From IMG/VR virus record IMGVR_UViG_3300035698_007750, positions 1 through 42,072 of that record: a stretch of DNA of 42,072 nucleotides; one strand, 5' to 3'. A model generated the notes under the pieces. The model saw only the letters and a list, made by a program, of their open reading frames with translations. It did no database searches and was not told the DNA's origin. The translations under genes were made by a program, and so were the position numbers. This stretch comes from a virus. Numbering within the stretch: the first letter of the stretch is position 1; each line of letters begins with the position of its first letter. Shown here piece after piece: positions 4,470 to 40,494 of the stretch.

Positions 4470-5099
4470 TTAGTTCTCTTTCAAAATGTCTGTAACTGGG
4501 CGCACAAATGCGCCCCATTGGTCCGCCATTGCAGCGGCAATGCCTGGGTAAGTCTGGCTCCGCATGGCAGAGCGGGACTTATTCGGCCCTATAGCGTTAT
4601 CTCCCTTGTCTGTCTGGTTTGCCCACCGAGGTAGGCCCTTTACCCACCGAGGTTTGATGCCCTTTGTGGGTTGCAACCGAGGAAGGTTCTTCAACCAGAG
4701 TCCCGTTTTCTTGCTCGCGTCCTCCCCGAAATTATAGGGTTGAATATATTGATCTGGTGGGCGCATTGTGGTGCTCACAATACCCACTGGATTCTCTATC
4801 CCGATGTGAGGTATGGGTGCTTCAAGTAAGGCTAGGAAGAACGACAAGGCTTCCTCTGTTAGTGCCAAAGGGCGGTAGCCGTTGTTGGTCCAGTGTATGC
4901 CGGAAGAGCATATGTATGTGCACGGTGGGTGTGCTACCATCAAGTCCCACTCTTCGCATAGAAGCTCCAACACGTCACCAACATAGTGAGGGCCAACTGT
5001 ATCCGAAGGGCGCGAATCACACGAGAGAGCGTAATGCCCTTTCCGAGTGAAAGCGTCGCGGGCTACCCCGCTGGCTTCACAGGCGATTAGGACGTTCAC
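4470..5099 (-). CDS. C5-cytosine methyltransferase-like protein
   Basis: The start is GTG at 5099, overlapping the upstream TGA, with GGGAG eight bases before it. Residues 1-30 (MNVLIACEASGVARDAFTRKGHYALSCD) form the SAM-binding strand and loop, here without the usual GxG. AHPPCTYICSSG around residue 56 carries the P-P-C of motif IV with the catalytic Cys. ENPVG near residue 101 matches motif VI (ENV/ENP). At 209 residues it lacks an obvious target-recognition domain and is shorter than classical enzymes, as in other phage versions. Likely role: marking phage DNA against host restriction, or a related base modification. Confidence 0.65.
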   Translation of the reverse strand: MNVLIACEASGVARDAFTRKGHYALSCDSRPSDTVGPHYVGDVLELLCEEWDLMVAHPPCTYICSSGIHWTNNGYRPLALTEEALSFFLALLEAPIPHIGIENPVGIVSTTMRPPDQYIQPYNFGEDASKKTGLWLKNLPRLQPTKGIKPRWVKGLPRWANQTDKGDNAIGPNKSRSAMRSQTYPGIAAAMADQWGAFVRPVTDILKEN

Positions 5100-8611: not shown

Positions 8612-9097
8612 ATGGCAATCAAACAACAGCGAGTCAAGAAGATCACCACCAAAGCTAGGCAGCTTATGAGGTTGCTGGTGAGTGGCGAGACCATTACTGC
8701 CGCCGCAAAAAAGGTGGGGTATTCACTCAGCCATGCTTCTTCTCTTTCTAATTCTGATATTTTTGTGCGTGAGATGGAACTCATGCAGAAGGATATTAGG
8801 GATAAGACTGTTGAAATGGTTGCTGAGAGAGATGTGATTGAGATGGCTAGGGAGAGGTTGAGGAAGGAAGTTGATCCCTCCATTGAGCGCATTGTTGCAC
8901 TTAGGGATGCAGCAGAAAAGGAAGATGTGCAACTGCGCGCAGCTATGGATATTCTGGACCGCGCGGGGTTGAAACACACCGAGAAGGTCGATGTGGATAT
9001 GAATATTGAGGTAGATATATCCATCAAGAAGATAATCGCAACCGCCCTGGTTGACCTTAGGGAAGGGAGGCTGAGTCATGCCGACCTTGAAAACTGA
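8612..9097 (+). CDS. terS: Terminase small subunit
   Basis: The start ATG at 8612 (MAIKQQRVKKITTKARQLMR) follows GGGTGAGA; an in-frame GTG lies six bases earlier. Residues 18-50 (LLVSGETITAAAKKVGYSLS) form an HTH of the kind that recognises the packaging site. A long coiled-coil helix (VREMELMQKDIRDKTVEMVA) and a C-terminal segment that should contact the large subunit follow. The stop overlaps the start of the large terminase gene by 20 bases. Size (161 residues) and order are standard for a small terminase. Confidence 0.8.
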   Translation: MAIKQQRVKKITTKARQLMRLLVSGETITAAAKKVGYSLSHASSLSNSDIFVREMELMQKDIRDKTVEMVAERDVIEMARERLRKEVDPSIERIVALRDAAEKEDVQLRAAMDILDRAGLKHTEKVDVDMNIEVDISIKKIIATALVDLREGRLSHADLEN

Positions 9098-10670
9098 GGA
9101 GCGGGATTTCATAGCGAAGCTCGGGCGTGCCAGGTTCAAGTATTTCTGCCAGTTGTTTATTCCTGATGACTGGTTTGATGAGGACTTCCACGGTTCCCTA
9201 TGTAACTTCCTGCAGTTTGGGGATACTATGAAGCCTGGGAACCGGAGAACGCTAGTGCGCAATGGGAAAGAGATAAAGGGTGCCATTGATAAGTTGGTGG
9301 TCATGCCGCGTACTCATCTCAAGACTACCATCGCTGCACAGTTTTTCTCTTTGTGGAAGGCTGTGAAAGATCCGGAAATCCGCCAGTTGATAACGTCGAA
9401 TACCCTGACGAATGCGCAGAAAACTGTGCACTCTATTAGGGGTATCGTGGAAGGGAACCCGCTTTATCAGGCTCTCTACCCAGAGACATTACCTAGAAGC
9501 TGGCATAGAGAATGGAGCGATACAGCTGCATCGCTCAATAGGTTGAATGAGTGGCCCGAGGCTACCTTTGAGGCTGCAGGCATTGGTAGCTCTATCATTC
9601 GTAGGCACTTCAATCATATTATTGAAGATGATACTGTGTCTCCGAGTAAGGATCAGATCACCGATGAGGAGATATTGCCTACGCTGGATGAACTCCAGAA
9701 GGCTATTGGTTTTCACAAGTTGACCATACCGCTCTTGATTAGTCCTGACTCTGATGAGAGGACTGTGATAGGGACTCGATGGGCTGCTGCGGATCTCATT
9801 CAGCATATCTATGATAAGGAACTTGAGAAGGCTGGTGGGCGCTTCCATGTTTGGGATGTGCCGGCCTACACAGCTGAAGGGACTCCTGCATACAAGCGTT
9901 TCAGTGAGGACACACTCAGAGCAATTAGGCGTGCGATGGGTGAGTACATGTTCTCTGCATTGTATCTGAACAAGCCTATGAGTAGTGATTTCATGAAGTT
10001 CCGGCCTGAGTGGGTTAGGTATTACACGTTCAGTGACCCAATCTATCAGAAGGCCAAAGAGGATGGGTATGTGGTTGTTACAGTGGATGCTGCAGATCCG
10101 CCCACAGGGAAGGAATCGCAATGCTACACAGCCATTACCCCGGCACTGAGATGTAAGTTTGGTATGTTCCTCTTACCTTATGTTAGGGAACGTCTCACCC
10201 ATGATCAACTCTTAGAGGCCATTATCAAGGTGGGGTTGGAGTGGGATGCACGGGTGATAAGGATTGAGGCGGATAAGTATGCCTACCTGAAAGAAGCCTT
10301 GCAGATGAAGATGCGAGACAAAGGTGTCCATCTGCATATTGAAATGGTCAAGACGAAGGGAAGGAAGAAGGAGGCTCGTATTATGGGTCTCCAGCCCTTC
10401 TTTGAGAATAGGATGGTTTACTTTCTCAAGGGGCAAACTTCCCAACTTGAAAGCGAGATGTATACATTCCCTCGTGGTGTGACAGTGGACATTCTAGATG
10501 CGTTGGCTTGGCAGGTTGACTTCAATCTGGCACAATTGGTATCTCATACCAGCTTCGACCAGGATGTAGAAGAACACGCGAGTAACATGGTTACATTCAG
10601 CTTTGATGAGATTATGGCTGCTTGTGGTTTGGGTGCGACTCAGACCACCTTCTTTTCGCGCCAGCGATAA
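9078..10670 (+). CDS. terL: Terminase large subunit (ATPase and nuclease)
   Basis: This 530-residue motor packages DNA into the prohead. The ATPase part has the Walker A-like VVMPRTHLKTT at about 74-84 and a Walker B with catalytic acid in FNHIIEDDTV at about 178-186. The C-terminal RNase H-like nuclease shows VVVTVDAADPP, then IRIEADKYAY, then DILDALAW as the three acidic motifs. The Walker A is of the deviant terminase type (no G-K-S/T). It overlaps terS and is followed directly by copy 3 of the dispersed palindrome. Confidence 0.92.
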   Translation: MPTLKTEERDFIAKLGRARFKYFCQLFIPDDWFDEDFHGSLCNFLQFGDTMKPGNRRTLVRNGKEIKGAIDKLVVMPRTHLKTTIAAQFFSLWKAVKDPEIRQLITSNTLTNAQKTVHSIRGIVEGNPLYQALYPETLPRSWHREWSDTAASLNRLNEWPEATFEAAGIGSSIIRRHFNHIIEDDTVSPSKDQITDEEILPTLDELQKAIGFHKLTIPLLISPDSDERTVIGTRWAAADLIQHIYDKELEKAGGRFHVWDVPAYTAEGTPAYKRFSEDTLRAIRRAMGEYMFSALYLNKPMSSDFMKFRPEWVRYYTFSDPIYQKAKEDGYVVVTVDAADPPTGKESQCYTAITPALRCKFGMFLLPYVRERLTHDQLLEAIIKVGLEWDARVIRIEADKYAYLKEALQMKMRDKGVHLHIEMVKTKGRKKEARIMGLQPFFENRMVYFLKGQTSQLESEMYTFPRGVTVDILDALAWQVDFNLAQLVSHTSFDQDVEEHASNMVTFSFDEIMAACGLGATQTTFFSRQR

Positions 10671-24692: not shown

Positions 24693-25529
24693 ATGAGTTG
24701 GGAAGATTTCGCATTTGGCCCGATGGGTGCTGATATGCTTAGTGGTGGTAATGACAATGGTATGCGCACGTACCCCACCATGAACAAGAAGCAGAAACAG
24801 ATGTTCAATACTATCATGCCTTGGGCGCAGGATAGCATTGGTCAGGGTCTTACACCCTGGGCGGACACGGGTAATTTCAATGGTGCGTATGAGTGGACTT
24901 CCCCTTTGAATACGCTAGAGAATCAGGGGATGGGCGCACTTGCGCAATTCGTGAATACTCCACAAGACTACGGTAATTTCAGAGGCGCCTTGGATACTGC
25001 TGTGCAAGGGTTATCTCCTGAATACATGCAAGGGCAGTTCGATCAGAATATACTACCCAGGCAGAAACGCTTGTTCAATGAACTTGTGATGCCGCAGGTG
25101 CAGGAGAGTTACGCAGGCACGGGTGCTTTTGATAGTGGTGCTAGAAGGCAAGCCGAGGTTGATGCTGCTAGTCAATTCAGTGAGGCCGCAGGTGGCACAC
25201 TTTATGATATGATAATGCAGGGGCAGCAATATGGTAGGGATGCTTTGTATAACTCCCCGGCTGTGTTGCAATTCCTTGCACAAGAACCTTTGGCACGTGC
25301 GCAAGCTGGACTTGCTGGTGGTGCTGTAGAGAGGAACGCGGAGAATATGGAGATACAGGCACGGTACCAAGAGTACCTCCGTACGCAACCAGAAGCTAAT
25401 CCTATGCTTGATCGTGTGATGCAGCTACTTGGCATGACAACTCAAGCGTATCAGAATGTAGAACAGACTAACCCATTGGCCGACATAATGCAGATTGGGG
25501 CGAAATTACTGCCCTTGGCCCTCGCGTAA
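24693..25529 (+). CDS. Internal virion protein (ejection) 1, 278 aa
   Basis: The start MSWEDFAFGPMGADMLSGGN follows AAGGAGTATTACC. The protein is Gln-, Ala- and Met-rich and mostly helical, with QGQFDQNILPRQKRLFNELV and VQESYAGTGAFDSGARRQAE, a pattern I associate with the smaller internal core proteins of podoviruses. It stands first in a block of three genes that ends with a giant one, the usual order of ejection proteins. Confidence 0.55.
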   Translation: MSWEDFAFGPMGADMLSGGNDNGMRTYPTMNKKQKQMFNTIMPWAQDSIGQGLTPWADTGNFNGAYEWTSPLNTLENQGMGALAQFVNTPQDYGNFRGALDTAVQGLSPEYMQGQFDQNILPRQKRLFNELVMPQVQESYAGTGAFDSGARRQAEVDAASQFSEAAGGTLYDMIMQGQQYGRDALYNSPAVLQFLAQEPLARAQAGLAGGAVERNAENMEIQARYQEYLRTQPEANPMLDRVMQLLGMTTQAYQNVEQTNPLADIMQIGAKLLPLALA

Positions 25530-26637: not shown

Positions 26638-29600
26638 ATGGGTGATAGCTTAGACGAACAGCTAGAGGTAATTGCACAACAGGGTGACAAGGCAACTGCT
26701 AAGCAGATGACTAATGCTGCTAGGGCTGCTATCAAAGAGAAGCGCATTACTTGGCCTGACTTGATAAATACTACAGCATGGTCTGGTGCTGTTGTAGAAG
26801 AGAGGAAAGAACTCAAAGCATTATACTGGGAGACAATCCTAGCCAGCCCCAAGGTTCAAGCAGCAGTCAAGAAGGATCCGGCCGCGCTGGAAATCATCAG
26901 AGCAAAGTTTGATTCGCATACGAAGTATAAAGACGAACTCCTCTCCCCTGTGGAAATGGTTGAAGTCAAGAAGAGAAACTTACTAGACAGACAGATGGCT
27001 GAGTACCGCGTAGCGCAATCTAATGACTCCCCCTCTTTCAAGCGGTCCTTTCTGGAAGAAGTTGCCTTCACGCTCAACGCACTCCCAGAAGCCGGCATTG
27101 CTGCCTACAAGGGCGTAGACAGCGGTTTGGAGTACATAGCCGATAAAGCCTTGAAGGCCCCTGGTGCTTTCCATATGCCCTTCTATGACAAAGTCATGGA
27201 GGGGGAGCGGCGTACCCAAAGGGTTAGGGAGATACAAGCTGAAGCGCATAGTGACCTCAGCAAGTCAGCTATGTTTGCTTCGGATGTTCGAGATGGATTA
27301 GCCAAATTTCTCTCTAGTTTGGTAGTGCTAAAGATGACTAACCCAACGGCGGTTATCCCAGGTGCTGCTGGCGGGGCGCTCTCCGGGGTTTCTCGTATTG
27401 CCGCAATAGGAAAGAATGCTGTAGGATTAGGCTTGCGGTCTGCCGTCTTGCAGGAAGGGACACTCCCTGAGCGTTTCAAGTCTTTCTATACTACCACGCT
27501 ATTCGCGGGCACTCCTATACCAACAGGATTTGCTAGGACTCCTGCAGGTGCTAAGGTCTTGGACTTCATGGCTAACACTGCACTTTCTAGCTTCTTTATC
27601 TATCCTGAAATAGTGAAAGCTGCTCGTGAGAATGACCAAGCCCTCCTTGCTAATCCGGATTTCATTGTCACAGCATTCACTGATGCGATCCTTTCATCGT
27701 CTACCTCAACGCATTGGCAAGCGGGGGTGGAAAAGGCGGTCTCTGAGTCAAAGATGACTGCGGCTGAGGAAAAAACATTTAGAGCTGACGCTGAGAAGTC
27801 TTGGGGAATACTCCAAGGTAAACTTCTCAACGGCGAAACAGTAACAAATCTGAACTACACGCCAGTGAAACTCGTAGGGTCTATGCGGGATGCTTCTGGT
27901 GTTGTATATCGCGCTGGTCCTGTGCCCCTTAGCAGAGTACAAACTGCGGGCATGGGGATGGACGTTGCTCAGATCAACAGAGACACTGGGCAGATATGGT
28001 TGTCTCTGCCTCAGCAGCTTCGACTCAGGATATACGAAGGAACTCCCAAGGAAGCCAAGGATATAATCAGGCAAGCTGACCGGCTTGGCCTTAGTGGGAA
28101 AGCGAAAGAGCAGTTTATACTAGAAGCTGTCCCTAGTAAGGCAGATAGACTCGCAGGTGATAAACCTCCGATAGCACTCCGAGAGCAACTCCACGAGGTT
28201 GATAAGACTGAAGCACTCAACTTTGATACCAGCAAGGGTGCCCAGCCTGAAAAAGTATCAGGAACAGCCGAAGTGCAGATAGATGGACCTAAGGGAACCC
28301 ATGAACGAGGGCAACTGGTTGTTAGGTCCCTTGAAGAAATACCCATGAATAGGGCATCCAGCGGAGATGGCTACAAGGCTAATACGCATTACGAAGCTAA
28401 CGCCAAGAAGGTAGTCGGGGGAATGCGGGTTATCCTAAAGGCGCTTGCGGGTGCGGCAACGCCAGAAGGATATGAAAAGAACAAAGCTGCTATCAAACTC
28501 GGATGGGCACAGGTGTTGTCGGGCTTCAAGCATAGTTCTGGACGAAATACTCACACAGAATTCTGGCCAGAAAAAGACCTTGGCGCAGAAAGCGCGAAGA
28601 GTATCACAGAGGCATCAGAGATAATAACCAAGAAACTCGCACAGATCGAGGACTATGGTTCTGAACTCCCTTCTTCCGACCTTGCCGATGTAGCTAATGC
28701 TGCTAAGGGATTCCTATCTACCTTTGCGCAAAGCATGGCAGAGAGTGTATCTTCTGGTAAGCCCAAAACAAATGCGTTTATCAGTGATCGAGTGGTACGA
28801 GCAGCTATAGAACTTGAAGGTTTACTAGCGCGTCTTGACGGGGGAATATCCTCCAAAGGTGCCATTGCAGATATACAGAGGAATAGTTCAGACATGCTCC
28901 TCAAGCCTGGGCAACTTTCTGCGGATACCGTAGAAGCCATGCGAGAAATGAGGCAGCAACGTGCCTATGCAAATATGCCCAAGGAAGAATGGGACCGCTT
29001 CGTAAACTCGCAGTTGACCCCCGAGGAGAGGGCTCTTTATAAGTACCTCGAAGACCCGACTAATCTCGAGTTAGCCCGGGATGCAATTGAGTATGATGCA
29101 GACATGGCACTTAGGGATAACATTCGTTACTGGGATGAACGTGGTAACAATGTTATAGATGGAACTAAGCCATCATCTCCAGGACCGACTAAGGATCCTA
29201 AGGGAAAACGCACCGCCATAGAGGAACTTGAGAGTGCACGTGTCCTCTACAATGAGAATAGAACCCTAGCTCAGCGCATAGGTGGAACACTTGCTGGATG
29301 GGCGAGTGAGACAGCGTATTTCGCATCCAGGAATATGCCCACCTTGGGGCGCCTGTTCTCCATGATTCCTTCAAGGATTGCACAAACGCAACAAATGGCT
29401 ACCGCTTGGGTAGCTGATGTGACAAAACATGGGCCTGATCTAACCGATGCGGACTTCCAGAATATTCTCTGGATGCAAGCATCGAAGGTCGACCAGCGTA
29501 ACATTATGAATACTTACACTGGTGCAAAGCGTAAGCAAATGGCCTACGCAGCCAAACGTACCAACTGGCTCATGGAGAAGTTTGGTAGGATCGCCAAAGC

Positions 29601-31566
29601 GTCCGGTGCCATGAATAAGGATTGGCCAGCGTCTTTCCTTGATAAACTATCCGAGGAGAAGGGTGATCTTCTTGGTAAGCTGCGGGAGAATCCTAAGCAA
29701 CCTCGTAAGCAAAGGCGCCTTGCTGAGATTGATACTATTGAACAATTTGTCAAGAACATGGAAGTGCGGTATGCACCCATAGTAGCTAGCTGGTTTGAGA
29801 AGGGGCTTACCTCGGCCGGGGATAAGCTATACGCGGTTAGTGGAGCGCATTTCAACCGTAGAAAGACCGTGGATATAAAAGCGTTGTTCACGAGTTTACG
29901 TGAAAATGGCCTAGTGGAGGATTCAGACGCTAACATTATCAACGTAATGGCACAGTATGCCAATCGTGCTGGTGCTATCTTCGGCACGGCTGCGTTGCTG
30001 AAAGAAGCTCGCAGAGTTGGAGCTGTCCTTCCAGCTAACAAAGCGCCAGCAAACTGGAAAAGACTAAACTCCGGTAGCAAGGAAGCTGTAAATCCTGATC
30101 TTGCTCACAAACTAGACGCTGCAAAGACACGTCGTGGGTCTAGCAAACTAGATGCCTTCTTCGGAATATCCAAGATGGCACAGTTTATAGACGCATCTGG
30201 TTTGTTTGTGTATGATATGTTTCAAGCTGGGTACACTGGCGCGTGGCTCCCGTGGAATCTCCCAACTTATTCAGTCAACCTGGTCAGGGGCTTCCGGGAT
30301 GTAATAACAAAGAGCAACGATTACCTTGCTGCTACAGGTAATGGTCTATTCGCTTACCCATATACTCCGCCGAAGGATAGCTACTTCGAAAAGATACGCA
30401 TGGCACAAACTGCGGACATCTGGAAGAAAGCTGGTATATGGGTAACTGATGGAATCAACAAGCAGGATCCGACGTGGGCGATATTGAGTAAGTCTGCGAC
30501 ACTTCCGCTTAGGGTTACCATGAATTCGCTATGGGAAGTTGCGTGGACTGGAGATCACATAGCGCGCATGGCGACATACCAGTACCTGCAGAGTAAGAAG
30601 GGTTTGACCGGTAAGGAAGCTGCTACAGCAGCTGCAATCATACATGCTGCCTACGATGACATCCCAGCAGGCACGCGTAAGGTACTGAATAAAATCTTCT
30701 TCACTCCATCGTTCACCATTGCTACTACCAGGTTCCTATTCGCTTCTGCGACCAACGCGGCTAAGGTAGCTGGTAACACGGTAACAAAGAAGAAGAGCAC
30801 TGACTATCAGAAGGTTATGGGTACTGCTGCCGTGGGTGTAGTAATGACAAACGTCATGCACCATGGTATCATGCTTGCCCTCGGATACGAAACAGTAGTG
30901 CCTGGATACAAGTATCGTAAAGAGATTATCCGTGAGGATGGAACTCATGGGTACCTCTATAGTAGTCTTGCCCATCCAGCCAACCTGATACAAAGGCACA
31001 TTTGGAGATTCCTGGATATGCCTAAGGATCCAGAGAAGCGAAATGCGGCACTCCTGCGAAAGTTTGGTAACATCGCTCATCCACTTATAAACTTCTGCAT
31101 AAGGATGTCTGAGAATAGAAAGGCTGATGGGACTCCAATCTTCAATGAGTTTGAAGGTACTGCTAATGAACTCTTCAAGCGCACAGAATACGGACTTAGT
31201 GAACTCATCCCCATATTGACTGCTTGGCAAGGTGAGGTGAGACGTGGCGATAAGGAAGCAACCAAAGCACTCTCTGAATTGCCCTTGCTGGTTGAGGGTT
31301 TCTTCAAGTGGAAAGGATTCAACTACGTAACAGGTTCAGACATGTCCCGAGCTAGCTGGAAGATGCGAGACATAGTAAAGCTCTTTGAGAGGCGCATCAA
31401 GCAGCAAAATAGGGACGCACGAGAACGAGGTGTGCCGTTGGATAGAGAAACTATTTTACGTCAGAGCGAGGCTTTCAGATTAGAGTTGCAACAACAGGTC
31501 GACGAGATACGTCGATTGAGACAGGAGCGAAGCAATGAGAATAATGGTAATCGCAGCAGACAGTAA
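26638..31566 (+). CDS. Giant internal virion (ejection) protein, 1642 aa
   Basis: The largest gene of the window, two bases after the previous stop. A long charged N-terminal half (with YKGVDSGLEYIADKALKAPG and hydrophobic TNPTAVIPGAAGGALSGVSR around residues 230-250) leads to a C-terminal region (about 1270-1500) that resembles domains of large polyvalent phage proteins: WEVAWTGDHIARMATYQYLQ, AAIIHAAYDDIPAGTRKVLN, IFFTPSFTIATTRFLF. I see no lysozyme or transglycosylase catalytic motif. Its role is DNA entry through the envelope. The last 32 bases overlap the next gene. Confidence 0.7.
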   Translation: MGDSLDEQLEVIAQQGDKATAKQMTNAARAAIKEKRITWPDLINTTAWSGAVVEERKELKALYWETILASPKVQAAVKKDPAALEIIRAKFDSHTKYKDELLSPVEMVEVKKRNLLDRQMAEYRVAQSNDSPSFKRSFLEEVAFTLNALPEAGIAAYKGVDSGLEYIADKALKAPGAFHMPFYDKVMEGERRTQRVREIQAEAHSDLSKSAMFASDVRDGLAKFLSSLVVLKMTNPTAVIPGAAGGALSGVSRIAAIGKNAVGLGLRSAVLQEGTLPERFKSFYTTTLFAGTPIPTGFARTPAGAKVLDFMANTALSSFFIYPEIVKAARENDQALLANPDFIVTAFTDAILSSSTSTHWQAGVEKAVSESKMTAAEEKTFRADAEKSWGILQGKLLNGETVTNLNYTPVKLVGSMRDASGVVYRAGPVPLSRVQTAGMGMDVAQINRDTGQIWLSLPQQLRLRIYEGTPKEAKDIIRQADRLGLSGKAKEQFILEAVPSKADRLAGDKPPIALREQLHEVDKTEALNFDTSKGAQPEKVSGTAEVQIDGPKGTHERGQLVVRSLEEIPMNRASSGDGYKANTHYEANAKKVVGGMRVILKALAGAATPEGYEKNKAAIKLGWAQVLSGFKHSSGRNTHTEFWPEKDLGAESAKSITEASEIITKKLAQIEDYGSELPSSDLADVANAAKGFLSTFAQSMAESVSSGKPKTNAFISDRVVRAAIELEGLLARLDGGISSKGAIADIQRNSSDMLLKPGQLSADTVEAMREMRQQRAYANMPKEEWDRFVNSQLTPEERALYKYLEDPTNLELARDAIEYDADMALRDNIRYWDERGNNVIDGTKPSSPGPTKDPKGKRTAIEELESARVLYNENRTLAQRIGGTLAGWASETAYFASRNMPTLGRLFSMIPSRIAQTQQMATAWVADVTKHGPDLTDADFQNILWMQASKVDQRNIMNTYTGAKRKQMAYAAKRTNWLMEKFGRIAKASGAMNKDWPASFLDKLSEEKGDLLGKLRENPKQPRKQRRLAEIDTIEQFVKNMEVRYAPIVASWFEKGLTSAGDKLYAVSGAHFNRRKTVDIKALFTSLRENGLVEDSDANIINVMAQYANRAGAIFGTAALLKEARRVGAVLPANKAPANWKRLNSGSKEAVNPDLAHKLDAAKTRRGSSKLDAFFGISKMAQFIDASGLFVYDMFQAGYTGAWLPWNLPTYSVNLVRGFRDVITKSNDYLAATGNGLFAYPYTPPKDSYFEKIRMAQTADIWKKAGIWVTDGINKQDPTWAILSKSATLPLRVTMNSLWEVAWTGDHIARMATYQYLQSKKGLTGKEAATAAAIIHAAYDDIPAGTRKVLNKIFFTPSFTIATTRFLFASATNAAKVAGNTVTKKKSTDYQKVMGTAAVGVVMTNVMHHGIMLALGYETVVPGYKYRKEIIREDGTHGYLYSSLAHPANLIQRHIWRFLDMPKDPEKRNAALLRKFGNIAHPLINFCIRMSENRKADGTPIFNEFEGTANELFKRTEYGLSELIPILTAWQGEVRRGDKEATKALSELPLLVEGFFKWKGFNYVTGSDMSRASWKMRDIVKLFERRIKQQNRDARERGVPLDRETILRQSEAFRLELQQQVDEIRRLRQERSNENNGNRSRQ

Positions 31567-32494
31567 TCTTGTGGGACTCGCAGTTGCGTTGCAGCTAGAA
31601 GAGACAGAAACCCGGCTGATAACTATTGGGAACAACTGGGCAGGGTGTGGAGAAGGCTTAGTCGGAAACCTAGCTATTCAACCTGGCGATACCCAAGCAC
31701 TTATCAACGCGGTGAAAGTATGGGAGCCAGACTTAGTGGTTACTGACTATGCCCATCCAGCGCTCCCTCTTGCAATAGCGCCTGGGAAACTGTCTGGTAT
31801 GAGTGCTATCTCCACAGTAACCAAGAACAGCGGGGAGTATGCAGGGGCCGTGCAAGTACTCGTAGGGCACTTGGATATTGATAGTCCCGTATATGGCTAT
31901 TGGGATGGGATGGTACTCAAGGCTGTGGTGAATGCCCAGGTTTGCATAGGGCATCATGCTGGAGGGCTTGGTAGACAGATACCTTCGGCTTACTTGATCA
32001 AAGCAGCAGAAGTACCCGACGCCCCAAAGGTTTATGGATTACTCAAATCCACACAGCATCAAGGGTTCGTGCGGATAAGCGCAGAAGGATTATCCTTTGG
32101 GTGCCCACCGGGTGTGCTGGCGGGTATTCGTGAACTCTTGATAGGCAAGCTAGAAGGACTGTTCTGTGTAGGAGATGCTAGTATACGTACGGATACTGCT
32201 ATCTCGGTGGCACTGACCACTCCGCCATACCCAGAGAAGGGAAACGAAGTGCGTGCATGGGAGGTGGAGTTCGGTGCACTGAGGCACCTATACCTCCAAG
32301 CGGCGGGAAAGTTCCACACTGGGGTGTGTGAAGGTGTGATAGCGTGGGTAACTGCAAGGGGAACCAGTCGCTACGAGGCCAGCAGGAGAGTTATGCGAAC
32401 ACTCTCCCGCTTGGACCTCGCAGAGAAGCAGTATAGGGTAGACCTTAGAACAGGTATCTATACGCAGTTTTCCTACCTTCTATGTTCTGGATGA
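31535..32494 (+). CDS. Shortened PurD (GARS)-like protein, 319 aa
   Basis: ATG at 31535 follows AGGAGCGAAGCA inside the end of the giant gene. Residues 1-100 (MRIMVIAADSNLVGLAVALQ and PDLVVTDYAHPALPLAI) resemble the pre-ATP-grasp domain of glycinamide ribonucleotide synthetase. Residues 222-305 resemble its last domain: AISVALTTPPYPEKG for VSVVLA..GYP..Y.KG, then GKFHTGV for VFHAGT, then KQYRVDLRTGI for YYRRDIG. The part between is far shorter than normal (319 against about 430 residues) and the ATP-site acidic motif (EFN.R.GDPE) is replaced by GLSFGCPPGVLAG. So an active ligase is unlikely. What it does in the phage is unknown. Confidence 0.5.
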   Translation: MRIMVIAADSNLVGLAVALQLEETETRLITIGNNWAGCGEGLVGNLAIQPGDTQALINAVKVWEPDLVVTDYAHPALPLAIAPGKLSGMSAISTVTKNSGEYAGAVQVLVGHLDIDSPVYGYWDGMVLKAVVNAQVCIGHHAGGLGRQIPSAYLIKAAEVPDAPKVYGLLKSTQHQGFVRISAEGLSFGCPPGVLAGIRELLIGKLEGLFCVGDASIRTDTAISVALTTPPYPEKGNEVRAWEVEFGALRHLYLQAAGKFHTGVCEGVIAWVTARGTSRYEASRRVMRTLSRLDLAEKQYRVDLRTGIYTQFSYLLCSG

Positions 32495-33602
32495 CCTGAA
32501 TGCGCCCGGCCTGTTCCAGCGATGCTATTACATCACTAAGCTGCACAGCGGACATCATGTAAGATACCTTTCGGAGTAGTTTTGCCCGCTCGATCACCTT
32601 GGCCTTTCTGATATGGGATAGTACTTTCGCTTGGAGTTCACCAGTCTCGGTTCGTTGAATGAGTTGCATGATCTTAGGCAAGTGCTGCTCATTCTCGTTT
32701 ACCAAGTCCAGAGCTTCCTCTAGGTGTTCTTGCCCCACCACTAGGGAATCATCCCTACTGACAGATAAGATCATAGACACTTTGAGGATAGTATCTGGCT
32801 TCCTACCCATGTAACCTGTGGAATCATCTAGTGCATCAGGGTTCCACAGATGATCGTAGTAATCCTTGAACCACTGACGCCCGCCCGGAGTTACTTCCAC
32901 AGCTCCACTCAGTGTGGCTATGTATTTCAAATCCTCGACTAACGCATGCCTGAGTGCTCGTTGCCTTTCTGTTACCTCAGGCCACGCTATCCTAGTATTC
33001 AAGGGCGGTTGATGCACGAAGATCACGCGCCCAGTGAACCCACCTTCAATAGCATTCTTTGGTAGACTATCCTGAAACCACTTCGGGGTAGTACCAGCAA
33101 GCATGTTTACATACACTTGCGATGCTTCTTCTACTCCTCTGCCTACGGTGCGGTAGTCTAGAATATCCGGGCAGTCATATGCCTTAGTGAGCAAATGTAC
33201 AAGTGATGCGTCCTGCGCAGACTGTCCAAGGAATACCGCCATCTCGTCTATGCAGAGCAATCCTGAAGACACTCCAGTATCTTTCGCCTTCTCTTTCAGA
33301 GCTTGTATGAGTGCCTCTGGGGTGGTTTTCTGGGCGAGGACATTTGATCGCTTGTCTGCCTCCCGGTATATCTTCGAGGCTATTCCGATAGCGGTGCTTT
33401 TACGTGATAGCGCACTCTCAGCTACCAGGATTACATAGAGATTAGGGTGGAGTTTGTAGTAAGCGCGGTCCATGTAAACTTGCCTGTATGTTGCCGAAGC
33501 AATAACAGTCATACCGCACCAGAGATGAAACACGTCAGGGCTTTCTTGGAGTTGTGTGAAGCGTAGATACGTCTCCAACCAATCGTCACAAGTTCGTCCC
33601 AT
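32445..33602 (-). CDS. DUF3987-like replicative ATPase (helicase-like)
   Basis: Last gene of the leftward unit, converging on the PurD-like gene with a 50-base overlap. ATG at 33602 follows AGGAGGCTG. Residues 30-60 (GMTVIASATYRQVYMDRAYY) and YVILVAESALSRKSTAIGIA match the DUF3987 family; the P-loop here is degenerate (no GxxxxGKS; AESALSRKST instead). GLLCIDEMAVF is the Walker B and MLAGTTPKWFQDSL a sensor-like segment. The C-terminus is a winged-helix-like region. It probably moves on DNA at the fork, next to the polymerase. Confidence 0.6.
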   Translation of the reverse strand: MGRTCDDWLETYLRFTQLQESPDVFHLWCGMTVIASATYRQVYMDRAYYKLHPNLYVILVAESALSRKSTAIGIASKIYREADKRSNVLAQKTTPEALIQALKEKAKDTGVSSGLLCIDEMAVFLGQSAQDASLVHLLTKAYDCPDILDYRTVGRGVEEASQVYVNMLAGTTPKWFQDSLPKNAIEGGFTGRVIFVHQPPLNTRIAWPEVTERQRALRHALVEDLKYIATLSGAVEVTPGGRQWFKDYYDHLWNPDALDDSTGYMGRKPDTILKVSMILSVSRDDSLVVGQEHLEEALDLVNENEQHLPKIMQLIQRTETGELQAKVLSHIRKAKVIERAKLLRKVSYMMSAVQLSDVIASLEQAGRIQVIQNIEGRKTAYRYLF

Positions 33603-36184: not shown

Positions 36185-37690
36185 TTACTTGGCCTCTCTG
36201 AGAGACTTCTTAGCATACTCCAACAGTTCTGGACGTTGCTCAGGATGAGCATTCCAGTAGGCTTCCCAGGCTTTGGTGCCCGGAGCCAGATGCTTGTAAT
36301 CAGAGGGTACCGGCACAGAACTCTTGGGTGTTTTTGGGAGGACTACTTTCTTGGGCGGTTGCGCACCACCTTCAGAAAGGGTTTCCCCGAGTTGCACCAG
36401 TGCCAGCTTTGCTTTACTGGCATAGATGTTATCAAGTTCAAATCCCTTACCGATTCGTTTGGTTGCCTCACAACCAAGTATTGTAGCGCCGCTGCCGCAG
36501 AAAGGATCTAGGACAATATCGCCAGGGTCTGTATGCAGAGTGACAATCCTTTCCATGAGTGCAACTGGGCGCTCAGTTGGATGTATCTTTAGGTTCGGGG
36601 CTACCCGAGGGAAGGTAAACACATTTGTGCACCCGGGTTCTGTGAGATCACGTCTACCCTTGCTACAATGAAGGATCATCTCATAGTTATCAGCATGGGT
36701 TGACCTGTCTGACAAAGCTCCCCCACCACCAGTCTTGTGCCAGATGAGGGGCTTGATGTTGACACTGAACCCCGCAGCTGCCATGAGATCACGGATAGCT
36801 TGCATATTCAAAACATCGAAGAAAACCAAGCAATCCGCATTATCCCGCAAGACTCGATAGAACTCCTTGGCTGCCTCGGTTAGGAGTTTTATCACGCCAG
36901 CTTGACTATCATCGTATGGGATAACTATCTGCGCACTTCCGCGCATCTTCAAGTCTTTCCCATATGGGGGGTCAGTTATGATAGCATCTATGCTATTGTC
37001 TGCTATCTTCTTTAGTAGGTCAAGACAATTACCTTGGGTTATGGTACCCTGGATAACATGCGCACCGGCCTTCTTCTTTAGAACTTCTAGCTTGCGCTCA
37101 ACTACCTTGCTGAGTTGCTCGGAAACTTCATCCTCTTTGGAAGTCTGGAGGGCTTTGAAAGCATCGGTCTTGTTTTGAAACTGTGTAAGCTCAGCGTTCT
37201 CTTCACATGCCAAAGCGAGCTGGAGGTCTTGGCTCATTGTTGCCATTGACACACCGAAATGCTTAGCATGTTCAGCAATCGACCACCCTTCATCGCTAGC
37301 ATCCTTAGTAGGACGGCCAGGTTTCTTGACCCCATAGAGCTTACACTTGATTCTGAACAACCTAACTATGCTCTTGAGGTACTCAGGCCAAGTGAAGTTT
37401 TCTCTGCGAAGGTTCTCTTCGAGTTCGATTTCCCGGGCCTGCTCTTCTGAGATTGCTTCCCTTCCAAGTGTGGGGATTTCTGTCCAGCCAAGTTTCTTGC
37501 AAGCGTTCAGCCTGCGTTCGCCGGCGATCAATCGGTTGTTAGCGTAGTCAATAAAGATGGGGTGCAGTAAACCCAATCGTTGAATGGTGAGTGCAAGCCC
37601 TTCTATGTCGGTCAACTTCTCACGATCACGATCCTCCACTAAAATTGAATCAATGGGGATCATCTTTACTACGTATTCTTGGTCTACCAT
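36185..37690 (-). CDS. ParB-like domain fused to beta-class DNA methyltransferase, 501 aa
   Basis: ATG at 37690 (MVDQEYVVKMIPIDSILVED) has GGAG upstream; the longer frame starts inside the palindromic gap. Residues 1-200 are ParB-like (LTIQRLGLLHPIFIDYANNR, IAGERRLNACKKLGW, ELEENLRREN), with an HTH near WSIAEHAKHFGVSMATMSQD. Residues 215-430 are an amino-methyltransferase with AIITDPPYGKD (motif IV, 239-243) before DPFCGSGATI (motif I, 395-401), the order of the beta class (N6-adenine or N4-cytosine). This fusion is known in phages and likely protects phage DNA or marks its origin. Confidence 0.85.
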   Translation of the reverse strand: MVDQEYVVKMIPIDSILVEDRDREKLTDIEGLALTIQRLGLLHPIFIDYANNRLIAGERRLNACKKLGWTEIPTLGREAISEEQAREIELEENLRRENFTWPEYLKSIVRLFRIKCKLYGVKKPGRPTKDASDEGWSIAEHAKHFGVSMATMSQDLQLALACEENAELTQFQNKTDAFKALQTSKEDEVSEQLSKVVERKLEVLKKKAGAHVIQGTITQGNCLDLLKKIADNSIDAIITDPPYGKDLKMRGSAQIVIPYDDSQAGVIKLLTEAAKEFYRVLRDNADCLVFFDVLNMQAIRDLMAAAGFSVNIKPLIWHKTGGGGALSDRSTHADNYEMILHCSKGRRDLTEPGCTNVFTFPRVAPNLKIHPTERPVALMERIVTLHTDPGDIVLDPFCGSGATILGCEATKRIGKGFELDNIYASKAKLALVQLGETLSEGGAQPPKKVVLPKTPKSSVPVPSDYKHLAPGTKAWEAYWNAHPEQRPELLEYAKKSLREAK

Positions 37691-37746
37691 GGTAACTCCG
37701 TAGGGAAGAGAAAGAGCGGGAGCGCCAGTCGGTGACGCCCCCGCTA

Positions 37747-37776
37747 GATAACCCTTCAAATTGTGAAGGGTTTTAC
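37747..37776. repeat. Dispersed palindromic element, copy 5 (most symmetric)
   Basis: AACCCTTCA, AATTG, TGAAGGGTT is a nine-base-pair hairpin. A second pair of arms (CCGCTAG at 37741-37747 and CTAGCGG at 37786-37792) encloses it, giving a nested structure between two genes. Confidence 0.75.
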
Positions 37777-39799: not shown

Positions 39800-39896
39800 T
39801 GGGGTCCTTATATTCCAGGATTGATTTGCAAGTCTGGAGCATCATGATGGCAAAGAGGAGCCCCATCCACCAGGCAATCTTTATTGCTATCGGCAT
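39717..39896 (-). CDS. Possible small overlapping membrane protein, 59 aa
   Basis: MPIAIKIAWWMGLLFAIMML gives one good membrane helix at the N-terminus. The frame overlaps the ends of both neighbours (39808-39896 and 39717-39799) and has only a weak ribosome site. It bridges the eight-base gap between them, which is some support; it could equally be a chance frame. Confidence 0.3.
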   Translation of the reverse strand: MPIAIKIAWWMGLLFAIMMLQTCKSILEYKDPNENLIHTRPESPAIIGTPETPDRGWPR

Positions 39897-40494
39897 GGTT
39901 ACAGAGTTCCCATTGCCCAAGAGCCCACCGGTTCGCATTCCAACCTCTTCCTAAGCACTCTGCACAGTGCATGTTGTCGGCTCGGTCTGGCCCAAAAGCT
40001 AAGGCGTCCTTGAGACTCAGCAGCACCAACGGGGTTTCGCGGAAGAACTCGATCTCCCTACAAGTTCCCTCACTCTGCTTCCAGTCATTCATCAAAATGA
40101 TACCTCGCCAGAGGCCATTCTTGAGAACCTCCTGGTTGAAAGCATACCATTCGTCCACTGGAACATCAGGGAGAAGGGTAACAAAAGGATGGTCCTCTAA
40201 GATGGGTGAGTAGATCAGGAAGCCAGCATTGTGTAACACGTGAGCCGCTGTTACATGGAGATCATACTGGAGTTCCGGATCTATGGAGTATGGTCCAGCC
40301 AGATACCATAAGCCAGTGTTGCTCGGGGCTACCAATCTAGCAGGCGTGACCCCGAGAAATCTACACAGATCATCCATGTTTCGTACAGTTAGGTTACTGG
40401 TTTTACTGGACACTCCTGTGATGCACTTACACTCATACCAGGTTATCTTCCTCCTTCGGAGATACATGGACACATTTGCTATGATGTCAAGCAT
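39808..40494 (-). CDS. HTH plus nucleoside deoxyribosyltransferase-like fusion, 228 aa
   Basis: ATG at 40494 has GGAG about ten bases before. Residues 1-58 form a Cro/CI-like HTH (ANVSMYLRRRKITWYECKCI, then SNLTVRNMDDLCRFLGVTPA). Residues 60-155 (GLWYLAGPYSIDPELQYDLH, then DEWYAFNQEVLKN and SEGTCREIEFFRE) match the nucleoside 2-deoxyribosyltransferase/DUF1937-like fold, with the YLAGPY opening and a Ser..Gly..Glu end. A CAECLGRGW and CNHAD tail may bind zinc. It may salvage nucleotides and sense them through the HTH; that link is a guess. Confidence 0.65.
   Translation of the reverse strand: MLDIIANVSMYLRRRKITWYECKCITGVSSKTSNLTVRNMDDLCRFLGVTPARLVAPSNTGLWYLAGPYSIDPELQYDLHVTAAHVLHNAGFLIYSPILEDHPFVTLLPDVPVDEWYAFNQEVLKNGLWRGIILMNDWKQSEGTCREIEFFRETPLVLLSLKDALAFGPDRADNMHCAECLGRGWNANRWALGQWELCNHADSNKDCLVDGAPLCHHDAPDLQINPGI

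Follow-up and report, generated by a model that had tools for sequence, protein, structure and literature searches.

We show, through intermediate profiles and structure comparison and not by single-sequence search, that the last plus-strand gene of the 42,072-base virus record IMGVR_UViG_3300035698_007750 (hereafter the window, meaning this whole stretch of DNA) is derived from PurD, the glycinamide ribonucleotide (GAR) synthetase of purine synthesis. Together with its relatives, this gene forms a series that begins with an intact ATP-grasp enzyme and ends with an apparent lid-less pseudoenzyme, carried in the virion operons of diverged uncultured phages. With slightly less than even confidence, we favor the explanation that the window protein is a late-made pseudoenzyme with a PurD fold that acts by binding and is possibly associated with the virion.

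A PurD-derived gene at the end of the virion operon

The plus-strand virion operon of the window extends from the terminase gene (9078-10670) through an ORF of 1642 aa ending at position 31566, and the PurD-like ORF (31535-32494) is the final gene on this strand (Table 1). The first 32 nt of the gene overlap the 1642-aa ORF, and at its other end it converges on a replication module containing DUF3987, DNA polymerase, ParB-methyltransferase, AAA and PD-(D/E)XK genes, which bears out the placement at the end of the virion operon given in an earlier note on this DNA. That note also placed the gene after ejection proteins: the position agrees, as does the homology of an upstream putative stabilization protein, but the preceding proteins have no family matches. 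On position and this upstream homology, the ORFs before the PurD-like gene are probably ejection proteins. A tblastn search of 50,697 phage records found no relatives of the 1642-aa ORF (26638-31566), and the ORF occupying its place varies among related phages.

The PurD-like gene is a single reading frame of 319 intact codons from the ATG at 31535 to the stop at 32494, exactly the bounds given earlier. Per-codon usage scores +0.04 in this frame compared with -0.23 to -0.51 in the other five, with a codon fit weaker than that of the neighboring genes. Elsewhere in the window, a ParB-like N-terminal domain is fused to an N6/N4 DNA methyltransferase (36185-37759); at one related locus, L062, the regions similar to this protein lie in two ORFs, one on each side of the polymerase gene. 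The replication module also contains a DUF4406 domain (39808-40494) whose N-terminus reads as possibly helix-turn-helix-like, and a 209-aa ORF (4470-5099) resembles a phage cytosine methyltransferase on reading its sequence, with no Pfam match.

Table 1. Coordinates of the PurD-like gene, its parts and its neighbors in the window
Feature	Positions	Strand	Basis or remark
278-aa virion-module ORF (ej278)	24693-25529	+	homologues similarly placed in L058 and L155
1642-aa ORF, probably final internal/ejection virion protein	26638-31566	+	position only, no family match
Ribosome-binding site AGGAG, 7 nt 5' of ATG	31523-31527	+	sequence; similar site in all short-form relatives
Short PurD-like protein, 319 aa	31535-32494	+	ORF, blind profile, fold match, codon use
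N domain, about residues 1-114, Rossmann-like; only D71 kept from the PurD GPE loop	31535-31876	+	alignment; strands and helices of the model
Site of the absent ATP-grasp lid (B domain, E. coli PurD about 118-190, K145)	31866-31888	+	alignment
A domain in reduced form, having lost the TGxMG loop and the Mg ligands (E. coli E286, N288)	31889-32179	+	alignment
C domain, best-preserved part	32180-32446	+	TIGR00877 match 200-304; identity to short forms
TARG-E-RR-x-x-RT motif, residues 273-289	32351-32401	+	common to short forms, mostly also L063, L154, L155
Convergent DUF3987 gene, replication module	32445-33602	-	tail-to-tail overlap of 50 nt with the PurD-like gene

Direct searches were uninformative. 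The 319-aa protein as a query had zero matches in Pfam, PHROGs, PDB sequences, the 50,697 phage records and a viral-contig scan, and megablast of the PurD-like region matched nothing. Viral-contig scans with single neighboring proteins also returned nothing, the productive scans being those based on alignments. The TIGR00877 purD model reached the protein at E 0.12 and 11.2 bits through a C-terminal match (residues 200-304), below its curated cut-off of 288 bits; a bacterial PurD profile did not detect it (E 50), and HHalign against a shallow alignment of close full-length relatives (A2) was not significant.

The relationship becomes apparent through intermediates. A blind profile, built from five short phage forms and the full-length form L063 with the window protein left out, detects the window protein at E 1.5e-14, while the best of 200 shuffles reached only E 38. 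The blind short-form profile in turn aligns to the bacterial PurD profile with an HHalign probability of 99.6%. A short-form profile that includes the window protein matches solved structures at 7.4e-13 with PurD as all of the leading matches, and the family profile matches the PDB at 1.6e-41 with PurD as all of the top 11 entries. The window protein also matches several PurD-like proteins from loci fetched with the DNA polymerase, at 4e-8 to 2e-5. An E. coli PurD query, its sequence checked against 1gso, identified one phage relative, an unannotated ORF in MW202796.1 directly 3' of the last virion gene.

An AlphaFold2 model of the 319-aa protein, computed from an alignment that included full-length relatives, is moderately confident (pLDDT 68, pTM 0.73). 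It superposes 298 of 319 residues on E. coli PurD (1gso) with a Z of 20.3. The top 13 entries in the structural comparison are all GAR synthetases (Z 18.4-20.3), followed by biotin carboxylases at 16.8; a BFVD fold search with the model gave nothing at E <= 0.001. The predicted structure shows a PurD fold with the N-A-C arrangement. The earlier note had likened the N- and C-terminal domains to GAR synthetase, and both the blind profile and the fold matches agree with this. It had also proposed profile search and structure prediction as checks: the former succeeds through intermediates and fails directly, and in the latter GAR synthetases rank first, with an ATP site that is not intact.

Lost parts of the ATP site

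Residues 118-190 of E. coli PurD have no counterpart in the alignment of the window protein. In PurD this segment is the ATP-grasp lid (B domain), and it contains Lys145. Smaller gaps correspond to E. coli residues 211-222, 274-281 and 293-302, and with these the earlier figure of about 100 missing residues is borne out. Counterparts of the metal ligands E286 and N288 are absent, in agreement with the claimed loss of the acidic ATP-site motif, and the protein also lacks the TGxMG loop, the hinge glutamate and the RxGDPE signature. R301 and D303 correspond to R416 and D418 of E. coli PurD, and are kept in the short forms compared, in bacterial sequences and in nearly all full-length phage forms. 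Within the R-x-D-IG segment, however, IG has become LR in the window protein, whose losses exceed those in the other short forms. Thus, bacterial PurD (TIGR00877; Pfam GARS_N/A/C; E. coli 1gso and human 2qk4) shares with the window protein its fold, the N-A-C domain order and the C-domain R-x-D, and differs in possessing the lid, Lys145, the Mg ligands, the TGGMG loop and the RFGDPE signature.

Lacking lid, ATP lysine, metal ligands and TGxMG loop, the window protein is unable to form an acyl phosphate from ATP in the manner of PurD, and judged from its alignment it cannot be an ordinary ATP-grasp enzyme. The same losses support the probable inactivity suggested previously. Alternatively, the reduced protein may still catalyze an altered reaction, perhaps with a partner supplying ATP binding. 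The ATP-grasp motifs kept in 43 of 44 full-length relatives speak for such chemistry; we nevertheless consider it very unlikely, given that the lid, Lys145, the hinge glutamate and the Mg ligands are missing and that neither the window nor the short-form loci yielded an ORF for a stand-alone lid domain.

Short and full-length relatives in other phages

Lid-less versions of 333-347 aa are found in at least five other uncultured phages (L058, L060, L067, L137 and L140), in each case just behind the final large virion ORF and in convergent orientation to the polymerase module. E. coli residues 122-188 (or 122-187) have no counterpart in those short relatives that were checked, so that the lid is lost at the place matching that in the window protein, and the position at the end of the virion genes is common to all. 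These five forms are 21-25% identical overall to the window protein and share with it the residues YP, KH/RH, TARG, RRxxRT and QYRxD. Unlike the window protein, they retain more of the A domain and the full R-x-D-I/V-G. The lid region of the 361-aa form of L062 is likewise reduced, and the lysine is missing from it. Counting L062, none of the seven short forms has the hinge, TGx[MQ]G or metal-site patterns, and a loose lysine-loop pattern matches one of them (L137), in the N domain. By profile similarity and the site of lid loss, the window protein fits this short phage group.

Full-length forms with an intact ATP-grasp occur in the virion operons of many uncultured podovirus-like phages, with 49 IMG/VR loci carrying them. 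Separately, a DNA polymerase alignment fetched 80 loci, many of them truncated; 20 have the PurD-like gene, in every case downstream of the polymerase and on the opposite strand. The full-length forms (MW202796.1, L008-L056, L063, L107, L123, L154, L155 and others) are homologous to the window protein and 420-500 aa long and, unlike it, keep the lid, the ATP lysine, the hinge glutamate and the metal-site glutamate. By pattern count, 43 of 44 distinct full-length phage forms have the ATP lysine loop, 43 have the hinge glutamate, 43 the metal-site motif and 42 TGx[MQ]G, so that in its ancestral state the clade was probably a ligase that used ATP. By the same count, the GAR-synthetase signature RxGDPE is present in 0 of 44.

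Three of the full-length forms (L063, L154 and L155) have most of the C-domain features of the window protein. In L155 (record of L059), an ej278 homologue is followed by another ORF, a 1369-aa ORF and then the full-length PurD-like gene, which is the syntenic counterpart of the window gene. Its product combines an intact ATP-grasp with a C domain that is already short-form-like, including VTAR and RRAYRT, indicating that the C-domain change can precede the loss of the lid. The portal and capsid proteins of L154 match those of the window (1.5e-75 and 1.8e-52), and its full-length gene (L154:7659-8924) lies in the virion module between large ORFs and the portal gene, adjoining the portal on its 5' side. 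In a Rhodanobacteraceae contig the full-length form adjoins a tail-fibre gene, and in MW202796.1 the unannotated ORF (L007:42140-43468) adjoins the last annotated virion gene. Each record searched has one PurD-like copy, and no cultured phage in the collections searched carries any member. Some relatives of the window phage (L057, L061, L065, L071 and Mel-JY34) lack the gene, suggesting that it is not essential to this type of particle.

Among the more distant members, two full-length relatives (L143:1049-2317 and L144:7959-9260) are on contigs binned as Nitrososphaera and Kaiserbacteria, with neighbors that are not clearly phage-like; the gene next to that of L143 encodes a Na/Ca exchanger. 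In a very divergent 424-aa member (L113:10671-11942), the ATP lysine loop has apparently been lost, as has R-x-D-I-G at the C terminus.

The most conserved domain is A in full-length phage forms and in bacterial PurD, and C in the five short forms. The difference in conservation between the C and A domains (C minus A) is +0.07 in the short forms (n = 5); full-length phage forms give -0.18 and bacterial PurD gives -0.11 (column bootstrap, P at most 0.002). In its C domain, the window protein is more similar to short forms (identity 0.30) than to full-length and bacterial forms (0.17-0.19). The pattern RRx[YAM]R, noticed and counted on identical sequences, is present in 7/7 short forms and 3/44 full-length forms. 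The branch leading to the window protein is very long, at 2.5-2.7 changes per column. The protein groups with the other short forms in one tree with weak support (48/14) and forms no clade with them in another, and an AU test of a single short-form clade gives p 0.405. This grouping being neither shown nor rejected, there may have been a single loss of the lid or more than one.

Having lost more than the other short forms, including the R-x-D-IG to LR change, the window protein may be drifting. The alternative of decay holds that a full-length PurD-like enzyme was acquired as an accessory gene, then lost its function and is now being removed. Its long branch and extra losses, its codon fit and its patchy occurrence are what decay would produce. 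We consider decay unlikely, since the 319-codon ORF is intact behind a good ribosome-binding site, codon use is specific to the PurD-like frame, and lid-less forms persist with conserved motifs in at least five diverged phages. The word relic used in the earlier note is not the most apt for a shortened form that these phages keep in the same place, that is preceded by good ribosome-binding sites and whose C-domain residues are conserved. That several phages keep similar shortened copies in a matching place suggests instead a job that is probably non-enzymatic, and not mere debris.

Candidate roles of the window protein

The earlier note offered three functions: a virion protein built on an old enzyme fold, a decoy regulator of host purine synthesis, or part of a base-modification route. 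Of these candidates, a virion or virion-linked protein would best fit the position. In the pseudoenzyme explanation that we favor, the window protein descends from the PurD family through the phage clade carried in virion operons, and the loss of the lid, ATP lysine, metal ligands and TGxMG loop has abolished PurD-type formation of an acyl phosphate from ATP. Within the family, the lid-less forms show conservation shifted away from the catalytic A domain and into the C domain, where the TARG and RRxxRT residues have been gained. A conserved place among the late genes, together with constraint that now falls on a C domain rich in Arg, suggests that the protein functions by binding, and we infer that this domain contacts a phosphate-bearing or acidic partner. 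More tentatively, the partner may be a virion or packaging component, and the protein a minor virion, ejection or assembly protein. Such a partner is suggested by production together with virion proteins, from a gene that overlaps or abuts that of the last internal protein. It also appears the most likely one because the gene remains in virion operons though its place shifts (L154, L155, L142).

The R301/D303 pair, kept across short, bacterial and nearly all full-length phage forms, could instead serve a host-directed decoy, in which a PurD fold that retains the R-x-D of its C domain would bind phosphoribosylamine, GAR or host PurD itself at a late stage of infection and alter purine synthesis in the host. 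Absence of the gene from some related phages would be expected of such an accessory function. On the other hand, the TGxMG and GPE loops are altered or lost, the gene sits in the late virion operon and not among early host-takeover genes, and no purine gene besides the PurD-like ORF was recognized among the window proteins scanned. A decoy role seems improbable to us.

In virome surveys, purD or GART genes of viruses are listed among the auxiliary metabolic genes (PMC11097641, PMC12043954, PMC11360552). Compared by description only, the purD genes of these surveys resemble the window gene in being phage-encoded PurD of uncultured viruses; they are interpreted as helpers of purine synthesis, and the available excerpts of the surveys mention neither a virion-operon position nor the loss of the lid. 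These reports, along with the DUF4406 and DNA methyltransferase genes of the window, are the points in favor of a role in phage base modification or purine supply. For the window protein, we regard this role as extremely improbable: the catalytic residues are lost, leaving nothing to catalyze without lid and metal ligands, the gene is in the late operon, no base-modification cluster was recognized in the window, and RxGDPE is absent from all 44 full-length phage forms.

Returning to the particle-linked pseudoenzyme, a broader proposal is possible, though we lean against it: that the ATP-grasp is dispensable in virion-operon PurD and has been lost more than once (in the window protein, in the L058/L060/L067/L137/L140 group and in L062), that the role is non-catalytic and linked to the particle, and that at least part of the surveyed viral purD is a virion-module protein. 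If confirmed, the series from ATP-grasp enzyme to lid-less pseudoenzyme would be a clear case of phages reusing a purine enzyme fold, and a caution against taking every viral purD for purine supply. The phage ATP-grasp proteins described in papers on LUZ24-like phages and Pa11virus belong to other ATP-grasp genes, located in the early module in LUZ24-like phages.
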